Positions 7,000-34,525 of a DNA stretch of 38,466 nucleotides are shown here, in pieces. The stretch covers positions 1-38,466 of the forward strand of contig JAUPKU010000102.1 in the NCBI GenBank assembly GCA_030837285.1, in the 5' to 3' direction. The notes below the pieces were generated by a model. That model did no database searches and was not told the origin of the DNA. It was given only the letters and a program-made list of their open reading frames with translations. Positions within the stretch are counted from its first letter, which is position 1. Each line of letters begins with the position of its first letter. This DNA comes from Thermoproteota archaeon. GTDB lineage: Archaea > Thermoproteota > Bathyarchaeia > RBG-16-48-13 > GCA-020355125. A program made the translations under genes and the position numbers.

Positions 7000-8523
7000 A
7001 TGAGAGTGTCAGTGTTGAGTCTCCCTGGATCTAACGTTAGATTGCGTTATACAGGTCTCATATCGTTCCTTTCTAGCCTATTCAGTCTTCTTACAGGAGC
7101 AATTTTTGTCTTGCTTATTACGAGGAAGCTTTCCGTTGAGGAATTTGGCTTATGGAACATGATGAGTCAATATTTGGCGTATGTCTTAATATTCACTAAT
7201 GTCTATAACTATTGGCTTCCGAGAACTATAGCGCGAGGAATTAACACTTCCAGAACCGGTTTGATTCTATCTTTGAGCTTAGGCTCAGTTGCGACATTAC
7301 TCTATTTGGTCATAGCTTTCTGGTTCTCTCTATCTCTCAATCAACCTCTCCTAATATTACTCCTGGTAACTCCAGAAGTTATCTTATTCTATGTAAAATC
7401 TACGATGGACTCGATATCAACTGGATATGCCCCACAACTTAGCGGATACGCGCAAATGATATATGAATCGGTCAAGGTAGGTGTGGCATTCTGCTTGGTG
7501 TTCTTCTTTCGCGTCGAACTTGCAGGAGCTATCCTAGCAGTTGTTGTAGCACAATTGGCATCAGTTTTGTTATCGGCAAAACTTAACTCCCACGTCATAA
7601 AAAGCTCGAAACTAGACCTTGACATAGCTAAGTCATGGCTAAGACATTCGTGGCTACCGTTGTTTGGTACAGGCGTTCAAATAGTGGTAGGTTTGTCTTT
7701 TATTCTTGTAAGATTGGTCTCTGGGAGTGACCAGGCAATAGCCTATTATGGAGTCGCCACCACCATAGCTGGCATTGTTGCCAATGCAAATGCGATGACA
7801 TCGGGATTATACCCTCGACTGTTAGCTAATCGGCATCTTTCGGAAGGAGAAATGGTAATGAAACTAATGTACTTGTTTGCTCTTCCGCTATCTGTATTCA
7901 TATTCTTTTATGCTGAACCGATTTCAGCAATCTTCGGATTGAAATACTTGGTTATTGCTAACGTTGTCAGAATTGCTACACTATATTCTCTTATTGCCAT
8001 TCTTTCTTCACTTCTCGATACCGTCATATTAGGGATGGAAAGAAGGGACGCCGAAAGACTGAATTCAAAGGATTTGGCAAACAGCATGTTATTCAAATTA
8101 CCATTGCTGAACTATGTTGTGTCTTTTGCATACCTCATCATACTATACCTTCTTCTGATTGGTGCTCAGGGGTATGTTGAAATTACCTCTAGATGGATTA
8201 TTTCCCTTGCTATTAGCATCTCTCTAGGAGTATCGATGAAATTAATCATTTTGAGAAGTTTCAAAATTAGAGGATTAACTAATATAGTCATGTCGTTACT
8301 GAGATATTTTGCAGCTTCTGTAATTTCGGTAGGCATTGCATTGACAATCTGGAAAGTGCTTCCAGTAATCAATATTTCAGATCTGCTCTTAGCCTTAGCA
8401 CGTCCTGCAATCTTAACAGCTATACTCTACTTTGCTGTACTCGCAGTTATGGACAGGGATTTTAGGCTTCTTATTAATCATTTAGTAGAGGAAGCTAGAG
8501 AAATCTTTAGAGACTTATTATAA
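7000..8523 (+). CDS. polysaccharide flippase (MATE/MVF-like membrane protein)
   Basis: This is an integral membrane protein of the oligosaccharide flippase type (Wzx/RfbX-like), expected to move lipid-linked glycans across the cytoplasmic membrane. It has 507 residues and about 12-14 hydrophobic segments spread over the whole length, starting with the LISFLSSLFSLLTGAIFVLL helix. The early motif VEEFGLWNMMSQYLAY matches the conserved region after helix 1 in this family. A charged C-terminal tail follows the last helix. It lies between the sugar oxidoreductase and a set of glycosyltransferases on the other strand, consistent with a glycan island. Substrate cannot be read from sequence. It stands alone with long gaps on both sides. 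Confidence 0.85.
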   Translation: MRVSVLSLPGSNVRLRYTGLISFLSSLFSLLTGAIFVLLITRKLSVEEFGLWNMMSQYLAYVLIFTNVYNYWLPRTIARGINTSRTGLILSLSLGSVATLLYLVIAFWFSLSLNQPLLILLLVTPEVILFYVKSTMDSISTGYAPQLSGYAQMIYESVKVGVAFCLVFFFRVELAGAILAVVVAQLASVLLSAKLNSHVIKSSKLDLDIAKSWLRHSWLPLFGTGVQIVVGLSFILVRLVSGSDQAIAYYGVATTIAGIVANANAMTSGLYPRLLANRHLSEGEMVMKLMYLFALPLSVFIFFYAEPISAIFGLKYLVIANVVRIATLYSLIAILSSLLDTVILGMERRDAERLNSKDLANSMLFKLPLLNYVVSFAYLIILYLLLIGAQGYVEITSRWIISLAISISLGVSMKLIILRSFKIRGLTNIVMSLLRYFAASVISVGIALTIWKVLPVINISDLLLALARPAILTAILYFAVLAVMDRDFRLLINHLVEEAREIFRDLL

Positions 8524-23221: not shown

Positions 23222-23260
23222 TGGTGGACCGGCGGGGATTTGAACCCCGGACTTCCGCCA

Positions 23261-23276
23261 TTCTGTTTTTTGGTTA
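23261..23276 (-). other. anticodon-loop intron of tRNA-Ala (37/38)
   Basis: The anticodon loop contains 23 nt between the stem halves. Removing 16 nt after A37 leaves the expected 7-nt loop TT-GGC-A-T. The bulge-helix-bulge here is imperfect (TTG can pair with CAG next to an AAT bulge), so the exact cut may shift by one base. Confidence 0.75.
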
Positions 23277-23292
23277 TGCCAAGGCGGCGATC

Positions 23293-23315
23293 GCTCTGAG
23301 CAGTCCTTTCTGCTT
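23293..23315 (-). other. D-loop intron of tRNA-Ala with bulge-helix-bulge
   Basis: On the transcribed strand the 4-bp helix TCTG/CAGA (23318-23321 with 23295-23298) is flanked by 3-nt bulges GAA and GCG. It stacks on a 5-bp intron stem AGCAG/CTGCT with loop AAAGGA. Splicing between bulge bases two and three (GA/A and GC/G) releases 23 nt and restores a GATC-AGTCTGGA-GATC D-arm. This is the standard substrate of archaeal tRNA splicing endonuclease, at a non-canonical position. The outer exon helix is weak, so the motif is a half-relaxed form. Confidence 0.75.
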
Positions 23316-23356
23316 TCCAGACTGATCTACCGGCCCACAGCCATTTGTTTCAGAAG

Positions 23357-28941: not shown

Positions 28942-29390
28942 GTGAAAAAAAGTTAAAGATAAGTCTTGTAGGCTCAAAACAGGCTAAGAAAGGCTTTTCC
29001 TTCCTTCACGAAGGGCCTTTAAAGGAATGCGATGATTGTCAACTCCTTAATGTCTGTATGGTGGGATTGGATAAGGGACGAATATACAGCGTAGCAGTTG
29101 TTCGTGATAAATCTTTTTCATGCCGAGTTCATGAAGAGGGAGTTAGAGTAGTCGAGATTGTGGAACCTGATCTTGAGGCGGTTATAGAGAACAGAATGGC
29201 ATTTCCAGGCGGAATAATAACATACCAACCACAGGAATGTCAAGAGATTTCTTGTCCTAACTTTAAAAAGTGCGTACCAATAGGACTTACGAAGGGTGAT
29301 AAATGTAAAATAATTGATGTTGAAGGTTCTATTCAGTGTCCTTCTGGGCGTCCTCTTCTTCTTGCGAAGCTGCATCGGTCGATGGAGTAG
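28942..29390 (+). CDS. UPF0179 family protein, 5' end frameshifted
   Basis: This is a member of the archaeal UPF0179 family, of unknown function, with cysteine clusters that suggest metal binding. Conserved parts include the N-terminal SLVGSKQAKKGFSFLHEGPL, then CDDCQLLNVC, the RDKSFSCRVHEEGV region, SCPNFKKCVPIGLTKGDKC and GSIQCPSG. The first in-frame ATG is at 29058, which would delete about 30 conserved residues. The expected start GTG (28942) is one base out of frame, separated by an A7 tract (28945-28951); one more A gives a continuous frame. The gene's 3' end overlaps the convergent FKBP gene by 62 bp. The start is therefore uncertain. Confidence 0.7.
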
Positions 29391-30090
29391 TCTTCTCCTT
29401 TTGATAAGTTTCAGTGAAGACTATGTTCTCTATTTCAGGAAGGAACTTTTGAATATCAGCTGCTATTCCTCTCTTAGCAAATTGGACACCTTCTAAATAG
29501 AAAGCTTCTTCCGGTAACTCGATGCTAACCCGCTTCTCGGCAGCTCTTAGCTTTACTTTCTGCAGATCTACCGTAGGTATTCGTCTGTGTATAAGAGCCT
29601 TTATCTTATCAGTTTTATTTTTGATGATGTCTTTGATAGTTAAATCATATATCAAAGTCTTTCCAGCAAGAGGAGGGTTAAAATCAACTTGAACCCTTCC
29701 AGCACCTACAGCTCTGACAACTGCTAGTTTTCCATCGATTTCAAGCTGTGCCCCTGGATATGGGGTTACCTTCTGTCCTCTAAATCTTCTGAGTGGAATC
29801 AGTCTAATCTTGTTTGGGTCTCTGGGTCCAAATCCTTGCTCTGGAAGAATTTCTACAGTCGTTGGTTTACCAACTTCAAGGCCTACTAACGAATCGTCTA
29901 ATCCCTTCAGAACCCAACCTTCTCCAACAGCTATGAGCATCGGCTCATAGGCTGTGTTTTCCTTGAAGATTCCGCCTTTCTTAGCTTCTTCGCCGCTAGT
30001 AGTGTCAAAGACTTCTCCGGTTTCTTTAACCTTTGTGATATATTCTACGAGGATAAAGTCTCCCTTTTGTATCGACACGCTAATATTCAC
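29329..30090 (-). CDS. FKBP-type peptidyl-prolyl isomerase
   Basis: This is an SlyD/FKBP-type cis-trans prolyl isomerase and folding chaperone of the cytoplasm. The FKBP domain starts with KGDFILVEYITKVKETGEVFDTT. It is interrupted after GKPTTVEILPEQGFG by the insert-in-flap domain (PRDPNKIRLIPLRRF to NPPLAGKTLIYD), as in archaeal long FKBPs. The C-terminal 90 residues form a separate domain and end with a Glu/Gln/Thr-rich acidic tail. Length is 253 residues. The GTG start at 30090 follows AAGGTG; an alternative GTG at 30078 is possible. The acidic tail is encoded by the bases that overlap the UPF0179 gene. Confidence 0.9.
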   Translation of the reverse strand: MNISVSIQKGDFILVEYITKVKETGEVFDTTSGEEAKKGGIFKENTAYEPMLIAVGEGWVLKGLDDSLVGLEVGKPTTVEILPEQGFGPRDPNKIRLIPLRRFRGQKVTPYPGAQLEIDGKLAVVRAVGAGRVQVDFNPPLAGKTLIYDLTIKDIIKNKTDKIKALIHRRIPTVDLQKVKLRAAEKRVSIELPEEAFYLEGVQFAKRGIAADIQKFLPEIENIVFTETYQKEKTTPSTDAASQEEEDAQKDTE

Positions 30091-30131
30091 CTTATACTAC
30101 CCTTTGATTTAGGGAGTACCTTTTAACCTTT

Positions 30132-30797
30132 TCATTTCAGAGATTTCAGTTTAACACTTGGATCCCCATTCACGGCGACTATAGCGTAGAAACCTAGGTG
30201 GCCAAGTCCAGGGTTAACTATCAAACTTCCTTCCAAATAATCAGTTCCTCTAGCTTCATGAATATGTCCGCAGAAAACTAGTATTGGCTTAGTTCTGATT
30301 ATGAATTCTCTAATGGCTCTGCTTCCAACATGAGTTCCAGAAGAAGTGACATCAGTTCTAGTATCCGATGGAGGAGAATGGGAGACGAGTATTAGGCGTT
30401 GTTTATAATCTTGTTCTTTGTAAGAATGATACACGATCTCTTCAATTTCCTCTTCAGCTAGTTCGAAGGGTGTACTAAAAGGAGTGTAGGGACTCCCTCC
30501 AACACCGAGAATATTAAATTCTCCAATTCTCACACATCTTCCATGAACATTTTGGGCTCCTTCGACTACATTCCTATTTGCCAATTCCTTAGGATCACAA
30601 TTACCTGGAACGAATAGAACAGGCTTCCTCAATGCAGTTAATTTAACCAACATTTCTTCTGCTGATTGTATGTTACCGAAGTGAGTTAAATCCCCACAGT
30701 CAATAATAAAATCGACTTTTTCAAAGTCATCTATTGCAGAGAGTTTTTCTACTATTGAGTGATGGCTATGCAAATCACTGACTACAAGAATCTTCAA
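30132..30797 (-). CDS. metallophosphoesterase
   Basis: This is a calcineurin-like metallophosphoesterase of the YfcE/MJ0936 type, with two metal ions. All motifs are present: LVVSDLHSHHS (Asp and His), IIDCGDLTHFG, VPGNCDPKE (GNC in place of GNH, usual for this subgroup), LILVSHSPPSD and FCGHIHEARG with VNPGLG after it. The 221-residue length fits single-domain enzymes. The physiological substrate is unknown; phosphodiesters are likely. It begins at a TTG codon giving the natural MKILVVSDLHSH. It lies 41 bp downstream of the FKBP gene's start side, in a minus-strand run with dnaJ. Confidence 0.9.
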   Translation of the reverse strand: MKILVVSDLHSHHSIVEKLSAIDDFEKVDFIIDCGDLTHFGNIQSAEEMLVKLTALRKPVLFVPGNCDPKELANRNVVEGAQNVHGRCVRIGEFNILGVGGSPYTPFSTPFELAEEEIEEIVYHSYKEQDYKQRLILVSHSPPSDTRTDVTSSGTHVGSRAIREFIIRTKPILVFCGHIHEARGTDYLEGSLIVNPGLGHLGFYAIVAVNGDPSVKLKSLK

Positions 30798-30845
30798 TAA
30801 ATACCACTGCCATGAATAATATTCTGCAAATACTTTAGTGGAGCC

Positions 30846-31973
30846 TTAAATTTTTCCGAAAAAACTTTTCTTCTGTTTTGCTTCTTCGTCCATTTCTTTT
30901 GCCAACTCTGTCAGCAGATCTTTCTGCCTTGGAGTAAGTTTCGTAGGAGTTTGGATATTGACTCTCACCAATTCGTCTCCTCTGCCGAAGGCGCGTAAAC
31001 GGGGCATTCCTTTACCTCTAAGTCTAAAAACTGTGCCTGTTTGTGTACCCGATGGAATACGCAATTTGGCTTTTCCGTCTATAGTTGGCACTTCTATCTC
31101 CTCTCCCAGAGCAGCTTGTGTGAAACTTACAGAGGCCTCATGAAAGAGGTCATCATCTCTTCTCTGAAAGAGGTTATGAGGTCTTGAGTGAATGTAGACA
31201 TACAAGTCTCCTGGAGGACCGCCTCTAGAACCCGCGTCTCCTTCGCCGCTAAGTCTCAGCACGCCGCCATCATCTATTCCTGGGGGCACTCTAACCTTTA
31301 TCTTCCTTGTCGTAGAAACGACACCTGCTCCACGGCATTCTAGGCATGGAGACTCGACTATCATCCCTTTCCCACTGCAGATATTGCACGTTTCAACTTG
31401 GATTAATCTTGCAAACCCAGTTGATCTGACGCGTTCTACTCTGCCTGTTCCTTGACATTGGGGGCAACGTTTCGGCGATGTGCCTGATCTCGCTCCACTT
31501 CCATGGCAAACACTGCAATTCTCAGTTCTCGGCACGTTTATTTCAGTCTCTACGCCCGAAGCAACTTCTTCAAGGGTTATGTCCATATCATGTCTAAGAT
31601 CGTTTCCTCTCTGCGGTCCGTATCTGTTGACTCTTTGGCGACCAAAGAATATGTCGAAGATGTTGTCGAAGCCTCCGACTCCAAAGCCTGAGTTTCTGAA
31701 GACTTCATCGAAGTTGGCACCTCGGAATATATCTTCTTGTGTGTACTTCTCTCCTATTCCAGCATGACCGTACATATCATATTGCTTACGTTTCTCATCA
31801 TCCGATAGAATAGCATAGGCCTCTGATATTTCCTTAAATCTCTCTTCAGCTTCAGGTGACTTGTTTCTATCTGGATGAAACTCTAATGCAAGTTTACGAT
31901 AGGTGCTCTTAATATCATCCTTGGTAGAATCTTTGGATATGCCAAGAACCTCATAGTAGTCTCTTTTACTCAT
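30846..31973 (-). CDS. dnaJ: chaperone DnaJ
   Basis: This is the Hsp40 co-chaperone that delivers substrates to DnaK and stimulates its ATPase. The J domain has the HPD triad in LALEFHPDRNKSPEAEE. A Gly/Phe-rich linker follows, then four CxxCxGxG zinc repeats (CSVCHGSGAR, CPQCQGTGRV, CNICSGKGMI, CLECRGAGVV), and the substrate-binding C-terminal domain (VRVPPGIDDGGVLRLSGEG). At 375 residues it is full length. It is third in the grpE-dnaK-dnaJ set, 39 bp after dnaK. The set is of bacterial type and was probably acquired by horizontal transfer long ago, as in other mesophilic archaea. Confidence 0.96.
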   Translation of the reverse strand: MSKRDYYEVLGISKDSTKDDIKSTYRKLALEFHPDRNKSPEAEERFKEISEAYAILSDDEKRKQYDMYGHAGIGEKYTQEDIFRGANFDEVFRNSGFGVGGFDNIFDIFFGRQRVNRYGPQRGNDLRHDMDITLEEVASGVETEINVPRTENCSVCHGSGARSGTSPKRCPQCQGTGRVERVRSTGFARLIQVETCNICSGKGMIVESPCLECRGAGVVSTTRKIKVRVPPGIDDGGVLRLSGEGDAGSRGGPPGDLYVYIHSRPHNLFQRRDDDLFHEASVSFTQAALGEEIEVPTIDGKAKLRIPSGTQTGTVFRLRGKGMPRLRAFGRGDELVRVNIQTPTKLTPRQKDLLTELAKEMDEEAKQKKSFFGKI

Positions 31974-32012
31974 AGCAAATCAACTTGGAAGTAAAAAAAA
32001 AAGATAGGATGA

Positions 32013-33908
32013 TTACTTTCTATCTTCCTTCTCATCAACAACTTTGTAGTCCGCATCAACAACTTTTTCCTTTTCTCCTTCATTTCTGGGCTGCTCAGCC
32101 TGGTTCGCCTTCTCCTGTGCCTGCTGTTGAGCTTGCTGCTGCGCTGCCTGCTGATAGACTGCTGTGCCGACCTCTTGTAGGACTTTGGTTACCGCTTCAC
32201 TCTTAGCCCTAATTTTATCTGTTTCTTTCCCATTTACTGCTTCCCTTAGTTCCGCAACTGCCTTATCAATCTTGTCGATATTCTCTTTGCTAATCTTGTC
32301 GCCTAGATCCTGTTTTGTCTTCTCGGCAGTATACATCAATGAGTCAGCATTATTCCTGACGTCAGCCTCCTCTCTCTTTCTGCGGTCCTGTTCAGCGAAT
32401 TGTTCTGCGTCTTTAATCAGTCTGTTCTTCTCTTCTTCTGAGAGCTTTGTTGAAGCTGTTATTGTAATCTTCTGTGCGTTTCCAGTGGCTATATCCTTAG
32501 CTGAAACGTTTAGTATACCGTTTGCATCGATGTCGAAAGCCACTTCAATCTGAGGGACTCCTCGCGGAGATGGTGGTATTCCTGTTAGGTTAAACATACC
32601 TAGAGAGACATTGTCTCCAGCCATCGGTCTCTCCCCTTGGAGTACGTGAATTGTAACCGCTGTCTGAAAGTCTGCTGCTGTAGTGAATATTTGGCTCTTT
32701 TTTGTTGGAATAGTTGTATTTTTCTCTATTATCTTTGTAGAAACGCCACCTAAAGTCTCAACCCCTAGTGAAAGCGGAGTTACATCCAGTAGGAGGAGAT
32801 CTCTAACCTCTCCAGCTAGGACACCACCCTGGATTGCTGCGCCTATTGCAACGCACTCCATCGGATCTACTCCTGTTTCGGCTTGCTTGCCTACAATATC
32901 TTCGACGAATCTTCTGACGAGAGGCATCCTGGTCTGGCCGCCGATTAGGATAATCTTATCCACGCCCTTTGGTTCAAGTTTCGCGTCTGTTAGCGCCTTC
33001 ATTAATGGCTCTCTGACCCTCTGCACAATTGGCATGGCAAGTTGCTCTAGCTTCGTTCTGGTCACCGCTATTTGGAAGTGTTTAGGACCACTTGCGTCTG
33101 AAGCTAAGAATGGGAGACTTATCTCCGTAGTGAATAAATTAGAGAGTTCAATTTTCGCTTTTTCCGCTGCTTCTTTCATTCGTGCCAAAGCTGTCCTATC
33201 ATTCTGTAGGTTAATACCTGTCTGGTTCTTGAATTCATTGGCTAGATAGTCGACTAAGGCATTGTCTATGTCTGCTCCTCCAGTTTTGGTATCCCCGCTT
33301 GTAGATAAGACTTGGAAAACTCCTCCCCCGAATTCCATCATTGTGACATCGTGGGTGCCGCCGCCGAAACTAAAGACCATAATCTTCAATTCTTTTTCAG
33401 TCTTATCGAGACCATAGGCTAGGGAAGCAGCGGTGGGCTCATTGATTATTCTAACCACATCCAAGCCTGCAATCTCTCCTGCATCTTTTGTTGCTTGCCT
33501 CTGATTGTCATTGAAGTGAGCTGGAACCGTGATGACAACCTTCTTGACAGGTGTTCCCAGAAACGTTTCCGCATCTTTCTTTATCTTCTGGAGAATAAAA
33601 GCTGAGATTTGTTGTGGGGTGTATTCCTTACCGTACACGCTTACCTTATAGTCTGTGCCCATCTTCCTTTTGATTTCTATGATTGTTCCTTCGGAGTTTG
33701 TTATGGCTTGCCTCTTAGCTGACTCACCAACGAGTAATTGTCCATCCTTTGTAAAGGCAACTACAGATGGAAACATCTTCCCGGCCATAGTGGGTCCTTC
33801 AGCACTTGGAATTGTTAGGGGTCTACCAGCTTCCATCACAGCCGCTGCAGAGTTGGTTGTTCCCAAATCTATTCCTAATATTTTCTCTTTTTGAGCTGTA
33901 CTACTCAT
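32013..33908 (-). CDS. dnaK: chaperone DnaK (Hsp70) with altered phosphate-2 motif
   Basis: This is the Hsp70 ATP-driven folding chaperone. The nucleotide domain has the phosphate-1 motif [14 protein letters not shown] and the connect segments [16 protein letters not shown]. The phosphate-2 motif, usually DLGGGTFD, reads SFGGGTHD (residues 180-187): the first Asp is Ser and the Phe is His. The substrate domain ([21 protein letters not shown]) is normal. The C-terminal lid ends in a Gln/Ala-rich stretch and the acidic [13 protein letters not shown] tail, as in DnaK. Length 631 residues. It overlaps grpE by 4 nt (ATGA), so translation is coupled. Confidence 0.95.
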
Positions 33909-34492
33909 TTCTCATCACCTTTTTCAACAATATTGTCATTTTGAGAATAAATTGCAACTTTAACTAAGCTCGGACGAATGACTTTTCCTTTGAGCATGAA
34001 TCCCTTTCTTATCTCTTCAATGACGGTGCCCTCTTTATAATCTTTTGTCGGCACTTTTATAATTGCATCATGCTTGTTTGGATCAAAAGGACATCCAATT
34101 GCGTCAATTTTTCTTAAACCCTGTCTCCCAAGAACATCATAAGTCTTCTTAAGGATCATTTCAATTCCTTCTATTATAGAATTCTTGTCGCTACTTTGTT
34201 TTCCAGCTTCAACAGCTAATTCAAGTTCACCCAACACTGGGAGTAACTCACAAATGAGATTTAAATTCCCGTAATTGACTTTCTCATCCATCTCTTTTTG
34301 CGTTCTTCTTTGGAAATTCTCGAAGTCAGCTTGGAGGTACTTTAAGCGATTTAAATAGTCATTAACTTTTTCCTGTTCTTTTTTCAAGGCTTTTCTGAGA
34401 TTTTCCACTTCTTTTTCTAGCGCAGGAGTGTTCTCTCGCACTTCTGGTTCTTCACTTAGTTTTTCAGAAGATGTTGTTGATTTGTCAGACAT
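33905..34492 (-). CDS. grpE: nucleotide exchange factor GrpE
   Basis: This is the nucleotide exchange factor of DnaK. A long N-terminal coiled coil ([20 protein letters not shown]) leads into [20 protein letters not shown], the most conserved GrpE stretch. The C-terminal beta domain includes [21 protein letters not shown] and [17 protein letters not shown] chose the ATG at 34492, giving 195 residues: a TATA-like TTTAATAG (34526-34533) places transcription start near 34504, downstream of the alternative ATG at 34516. First gene of grpE-dnaK-dnaJ; heat-inducible control is likely but not visible in sequence. Confidence 0.93.
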
Positions 34493-34525
34493 GTCAAGCC
34501 CGCCAAAATATAGCATTACCTTTAG

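Follow-up and report, generated by a model that had tools for sequence, protein, structure and literature searches.

The window analysed here is a 38,466-nucleotide (nt) stretch (contig JAUPKU010000102.1, positions 1–38,466, assembly GCA_030837285.1) from a metagenome-assembled genome (MAG) of the archaeal class Bathyarchaeia, which comprises 2.74 Mb in 281 contigs and is 89% complete and approximately 4% contaminated. On the minus strand, positions 23222–23336 hold a tRNA-Ala(GGC) gene with two inserts, spanning 112 nt (23336–23225) plus an encoded CCA. Exon 1, GGGCCGGTAGATCAGTCTGGA (23336–23316, minus strand), supplies the 5′ strands of the acceptor and D-stems and the D-loop, and is near-identical in members of the same family. 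It is followed on the same strand by a 23-nt D-loop intron, AAGCAGAAAGGACTGCTCAGAGC (23315–23293, site 21/22), which has a fold resembling a bulge–helix–bulge (BHB) motif and which in relatives differs or is absent. Exon 2, GATCGCCGCCTTGGCA (23292–23277, minus strand), contributes the 3′ strand of the D-stem, the 5′ strand of the anticodon stem and the anticodon GGC. The 16-nt intron at the canonical 37/38 position, TAACCAAAAAACAGAA (23276–23261, minus strand), is supported by the fold of the spliced form and by its presence in four family members; its bounds are ambiguous by one base, as the insert can slide. Exon 3 (23260–23225, minus strand) provides the 3′ strand of the anticodon stem, the T-arm, the 3′ acceptor strand with U70 and the discriminator A, and the genome-encoded CCA (23224–23222, minus strand) is read directly from the sequence.

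Removal of both inserts leaves a standard 73-nt tRNA plus CCA in which all stems are paired, including G3:U70; given this spliced 73-mer, ARAGORN returned a tRNA-Ala(ggc) fold that keeps the G3:U70 pair. The fold confirms the first-pass annotation, which had proposed a 23-nt D-loop insert and a 16-nt insert at 37/38 in an otherwise perfect tRNA-Ala of this length with G3:U70 and CCA. The D-loop insert thus has what defines a non-canonical intron, namely a position outside 37/38 and a standard tRNA upon its removal, a form that is also seen in uninterrupted orthologues.

The unspliced gene yielded no ARAGORN call with the intron option either on or off, and a gathering-threshold Rfam scan of the window gave no call for the native gene; in a whole-genome search with the Rfam tRNA model the native gene scored 44.5 bits (cut-off 29). 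The silence of ARAGORN and of the gathering scan is a limit of these tools with D-loop introns and no argument against a tRNA. Elsewhere in the genome ARAGORN named tRNA-Arg(TCG) 'Asn' and tRNA-Gln(TTG) 'Arg'. Because interrupted genes are missed or misnamed in this way, the number of tRNAs counted in MAGs of this sort is probably an underestimate.

The window also encodes an FttA protein with 64–75% identity to FttA proteins of the same order, and among the named genomes of the collection it was best matched by Candidatus Bathyarchaeota MAGs, which places the contig in Bathyarchaeia. No relative was recovered when FttA was used alone as the query of a collection scan, and an alignment query was needed to recover these matches. 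The tRNA-Ala(GGC) gene lies near FttA in two Hecatellales records as well, and also in G008 and G011, so the locus is old. One model (R1) was built solely from sequences of the host genome and G011. Separately, a 507-aa open frame (7000–8523, plus strand) had no match in Pfam or NCBIfam.

Fold of the precursor and the D-arm motif

The 115-nt precursor adopts a cloverleaf in the predicted fold (z = −4.1 against shuffles; D-arm alone, z = −2.8). Its D-arm contains a 4-bp TCTG:CAGA helix, a bulge of 3 nt (GAA) and a 5-bp stem (AGCAG:CTGCT), and a 2×2 internal loop precedes the D-stem. The bulges flanking the TCTG:CAGA helix would be cut as GA|A and GC|G under the rule we applied to the inserts of this gene, which puts each cut, as splicing endonuclease would, between the second and third bases of the 3-nt bulges beside a 4-bp helix. 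The exon–intron borders of the D-loop insert carry a relaxed BHB. The 4-bp helix, the 3-nt bulges and the 5-bp intron stem described in the first-pass annotation were all found, and the motif is a relaxed rather than a strict BHB, because the 2×2 internal loop sets the D-stem off. When the insert was shuffled, a correctly registered central helix of 4 bp was common (45%), but its combination with an intron stem 5 bp or longer arose in 1 of 3,000. The anticodon intron, which sits at 37/38, has a poor or relaxed BHB in the window copy (TTGG:CCAA with a 10-nt 3′ loop); for relatives, inspection of the alignment allows a strict-register reading.

Across genomes, cuts in the BHB register restored a fully paired D-stem and an 8–10-nt D-loop in most inserts, and the intron stems vary in sequence with pairing kept. 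In family f21 the restored D-arm reads AGCCTGGTAT and then GATC, identical at every base to the D-arm of uninterrupted genes, for example that of G023. Two D-arm sites were distinguished, 21/22 (f1, f5, f21 and part of f18) and 22/23 (f6, f19 and part of f18). The poorest BHB fits fell in the window's own family, f1, where the spliced D-stem has a C12–A23 mismatch in G001, G003 and G005 and where no inner stem in strict register was found for the D-loop inserts of G001, G002, G003 and G005; the insert of G208 also fitted BHB-register cuts poorly.

Interrupted tRNAs in the host and across Bathyarchaeia

By hand reading, about 22 of the 38 tRNA genes detected in the host carry at least one intron each. 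The density is roughly 0.7 intron per gene, by an approximate count; published values are 0.84 for Thermoproteales and 0.21 over archaea (PMC8450103). At least eight host tRNAs have a D-arm intron: besides Ala(GGC), these are Gln(TTG), Leu(TAA), Arg(CCT), Glu(TTC), His(GTG), Ser(GCT) and Ser(GGA) (loci L017, L040, L033, L032, L035, L038 and L039). Two introns each were read in Ala(GGC), Leu(TAA), Glu(TTC) and Ser(GGA), the last three with an anticodon-loop intron beside the D-arm one. The cut positions in host tRNAs other than Ala(GGC) were chosen by eye, and Glu(TTC), whose spliced form ARAGORN named Arg(tcg), is the least certain of the set. The D-arm intron of Arg(CCT) lies at 15/16, and by inspection the D-loop predicted after splicing in G004 is the same as the one that G002 has without interruption. 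Further host introns lie at 29/30 in Arg(TCG) and near 31/32 in Lys(CTT). We also observed an apparent 29-nt T-loop intron in tRNA-Gly(GCC) (L037, C275:14704–14779), whose spliced form folds as tRNA-Gly, and a probable tRNA-Thr(GGT) (L034, C15:2022–2096) with one insert just past the acceptor strand, near 8/9, and another in the anticodon loop. The longest D-arm insert among the genes examined, approximately 50 nt, was seen in tRNA-Lys(CTT) of G008 (L118, C5:51480–51606).

In the window's family, G001, G002, G003 and G005 have both tRNA-Ala(GGC) inserts at the same sites within near-identical exons, and their D-loop inserts differ in sequence and in length (29, 16, 21 and 21 nt, respectively). 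Of the other genomes of this order, G010 and G011 carry an insert in the D-arm without the anticodon intron, and G007 lacks both. In G008, G009 and Hecatella orcuttiae (L099, L104 and L158) an insert in the variable region takes the place of the D-loop insert. The intron position in tRNA-Ala(GGC), as predicted from these genes, differs from family to family.

Pattern searches for tRNA-Ala(GGC) covered 257 Bathyarchaeia genomes, of which those that matched neither pattern are uninformative. The D-arm insert pattern was matched in 35 of the 257 (families f1, f5, f6, f18, f19 and f21) and the uninterrupted pattern in 26; a reversed-pattern control over Bathyarchaeia genomes gave zero matches. G009 alone matched both patterns, which leaves 25 other genomes with an uninterrupted gene, and the tally of 34 interrupted genomes used below omits G009 (second pattern match, C1:83312). 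In G195 two tRNA-Ala(GGC) copies (C32:16371 and C32:17293), identical over the matched part, lie approximately 0.9 kb apart in opposite orientation.

The D-arm of Bathyarchaeia tRNA-Ala(GGC) may be a recurrent intron site, as unlike introns sit at 21/22 or 22/23 depending on the family and other families have none. If these were independent gains rather than one drifted old intron, the class would be another centre of intron gain outside Thermoproteales, a tentative proposal to which we give somewhat less than an even chance. Because intron-bearing and intron-free families are close neighbours, the gain and loss of these introns can be put to the test, as can a link between such changes and the specificity of the endonuclease.

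Splicing enzymes and interpretation

The host genome encodes two splicing endonuclease proteins and one RtcB ligase. The first endonuclease protein, alpha, has its best solved-structure matches in the crenarchaeal chains 2cv8 and 3p1z_B (8.6e-41 for the latter), and keeps the catalytic Tyr-His-Lys. Its K41-P42-K43 aligns with K44-P45-R46 in the enzyme of A. pernix; a broad range of substrates depends on the lysine of this crenarchaea-specific loop (PMC6379350, PMC12397907). The other protein, beta, is without the loop and has Ala in the catalytic His column, but a His lies one residue away. The pair thus shows an alpha with triad and loop lysine and a beta without the loop and the full triad, the His column of beta being uncertain. 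A heteromeric endonuclease of this type goes with non-canonical introns (PMC4090602), and the heteromeric broad-specificity enzyme that the first-pass annotation had anticipated is borne out by these alpha (triad, K-P-K) and beta genes, as far as gene content can predict it. At least one splicing endonuclease gene was present in 60 of 61 Bathyarchaeia sampled, most of which have two, and the K-P-K/R loop was present in 32 of 33 alphas examined. In the catalytic His column, the betas of other Bathyarchaeia show Thr, Pro, Ser or a gap. Among the betas compared (L002 and L294–L311), that of the window's family is well conserved, with Tyr and Lys kept and a His one residue from the catalytic column, and the beta of other families is far more diverged.

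We conclude that the tRNA-Ala(GGC) gene is most probably functional (probability about 0.94), with two putative protein-spliced introns, the non-canonical one in the D-loop and the canonical one at 37/38. The precursor would fold as a cloverleaf whose D-arm has a BHB-like motif and whose anticodon arm has a less strict version of it. The alpha and beta gene products, which presumably form one (alpha beta)2 splicing endonuclease, would cut each intron at its two bulges, for the D-loop intron at TCTGGA|AAGC and GAGC|GATC. RtcB would then join the exons into the 73-nt tRNA with its encoded CCA, which would read GCC and GCU. The sequence, the predicted fold, the conserved exons around variable inserts, the uninterrupted orthologues and the enzyme genes are what we observed; cutting and joining at these very bonds in the cell is what we infer.

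A decayed tRNA pseudogene that has acquired insertions, its normal counterpart lying in another part of the genome, would present a similar picture; eukaryotic extra tRNA copies with D- or T-arm insertions are usually read so (PMC4090602), and an intact second gene could sit in the missing tenth of the 89% complete MAG. However, the exons are perfect and conserved across genera, and the same kind of D-arm interruption occurs in eight different host tRNAs. An intact second tRNA-Ala(GGC), which the first-pass annotation had counted as a refutation if this copy were also silent, was looked for and not found in the roughly 89% complete host genome, and none of the 34 interrupted genomes matched an uninterrupted copy. 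We therefore regard a pseudogene as very improbable.

Slightly less probable again is that the anticodon intron alone is removed, so that the mature tRNA keeps the other insert and has a larger D-loop. The predicted fold offers a stable hairpin stacked on the D-arm that would suit such a structure, but the insert varies freely in length and sequence, from 16 to 29 nt within one family, and is absent in other families, whereas splicing as predicted would yield the D-arm found in uninterrupted genes, and the genome encodes the enzyme type expected for such introns. The 281 contigs and approximately 4% contamination of the MAG might raise the thought of an assembly artefact, yet the organisation recurs in separate genomes, including the single-contig G002; this explanation is already refuted by the orthologues and its residual probability is negligible.

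Relation to known systems

Introns of this kind are already known in Thermoproteales, Caldiarchaeum and mesophilic Thaumarchaeota, and the tRNA-Ala(GGC) described here is a well-supported new case; we found no account of non-canonical tRNA introns in Bathyarchaeia in the searchable open-access literature. One close likeness is to Thermoproteales such as Pyrobaculum (PMC4090602, PMC8450103), in which single genes can hold two or more introns, at 37/38 and in the D-arm, the T-arm and elsewhere, with strict or relaxed BHB motifs and a heteromeric endonuclease. The present host, by contrast, belongs to Bathyarchaeia and is probably no hyperthermophile, and its sites 21/22 and 15/16 do not appear among the Thermoproteales sites named in PMC4090602, a list that ends in 'etc.'. 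The predicted enzyme resembles the (alpha beta)2 endonuclease of A. pernix (PMC6379350, PMC12397907) in its alpha triad, K-P-K/R loop and separate loop-less beta, although the host enzyme is predicted from genes and its alpha–beta pairing is likewise deduced. Interrupted tRNAs in the style of Thermoproteales, and the endonuclease type that accompanies them, are thus present in an archaeal class that is widespread and uncultured.

The first-pass annotation had placed non-canonical introns mainly in some Thermoproteota. They are indeed known there, but the statement was too strong, as 107 are recorded in Thaumarchaeota, a different lineage that includes mesophiles (PMC8450103), and others in Caldiarchaeum subterraneum (PMC3293823). 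In the latter, tRNA-Thr(GGU) has introns at 24/25 and 45/46, which resembles the present gene in pairing a D-arm intron with a second one in an intron-rich uncultured archaeon; the tRNA and the sites are different, and Caldiarchaeum is a putative thermophile. Equally overstated was the view that two introns are notable in a mesophile-looking genome: a mesophile with non-canonical introns is unsurprising in itself, and the host would be a mesophile only as judged from the window's DnaK/DnaJ locus and the impression recorded in that annotation. This locus (29329–34516, minus strand) encodes DnaK (32013–33908) and DnaJ (30846–31973), and the best models for DnaJ are bacterial-type.
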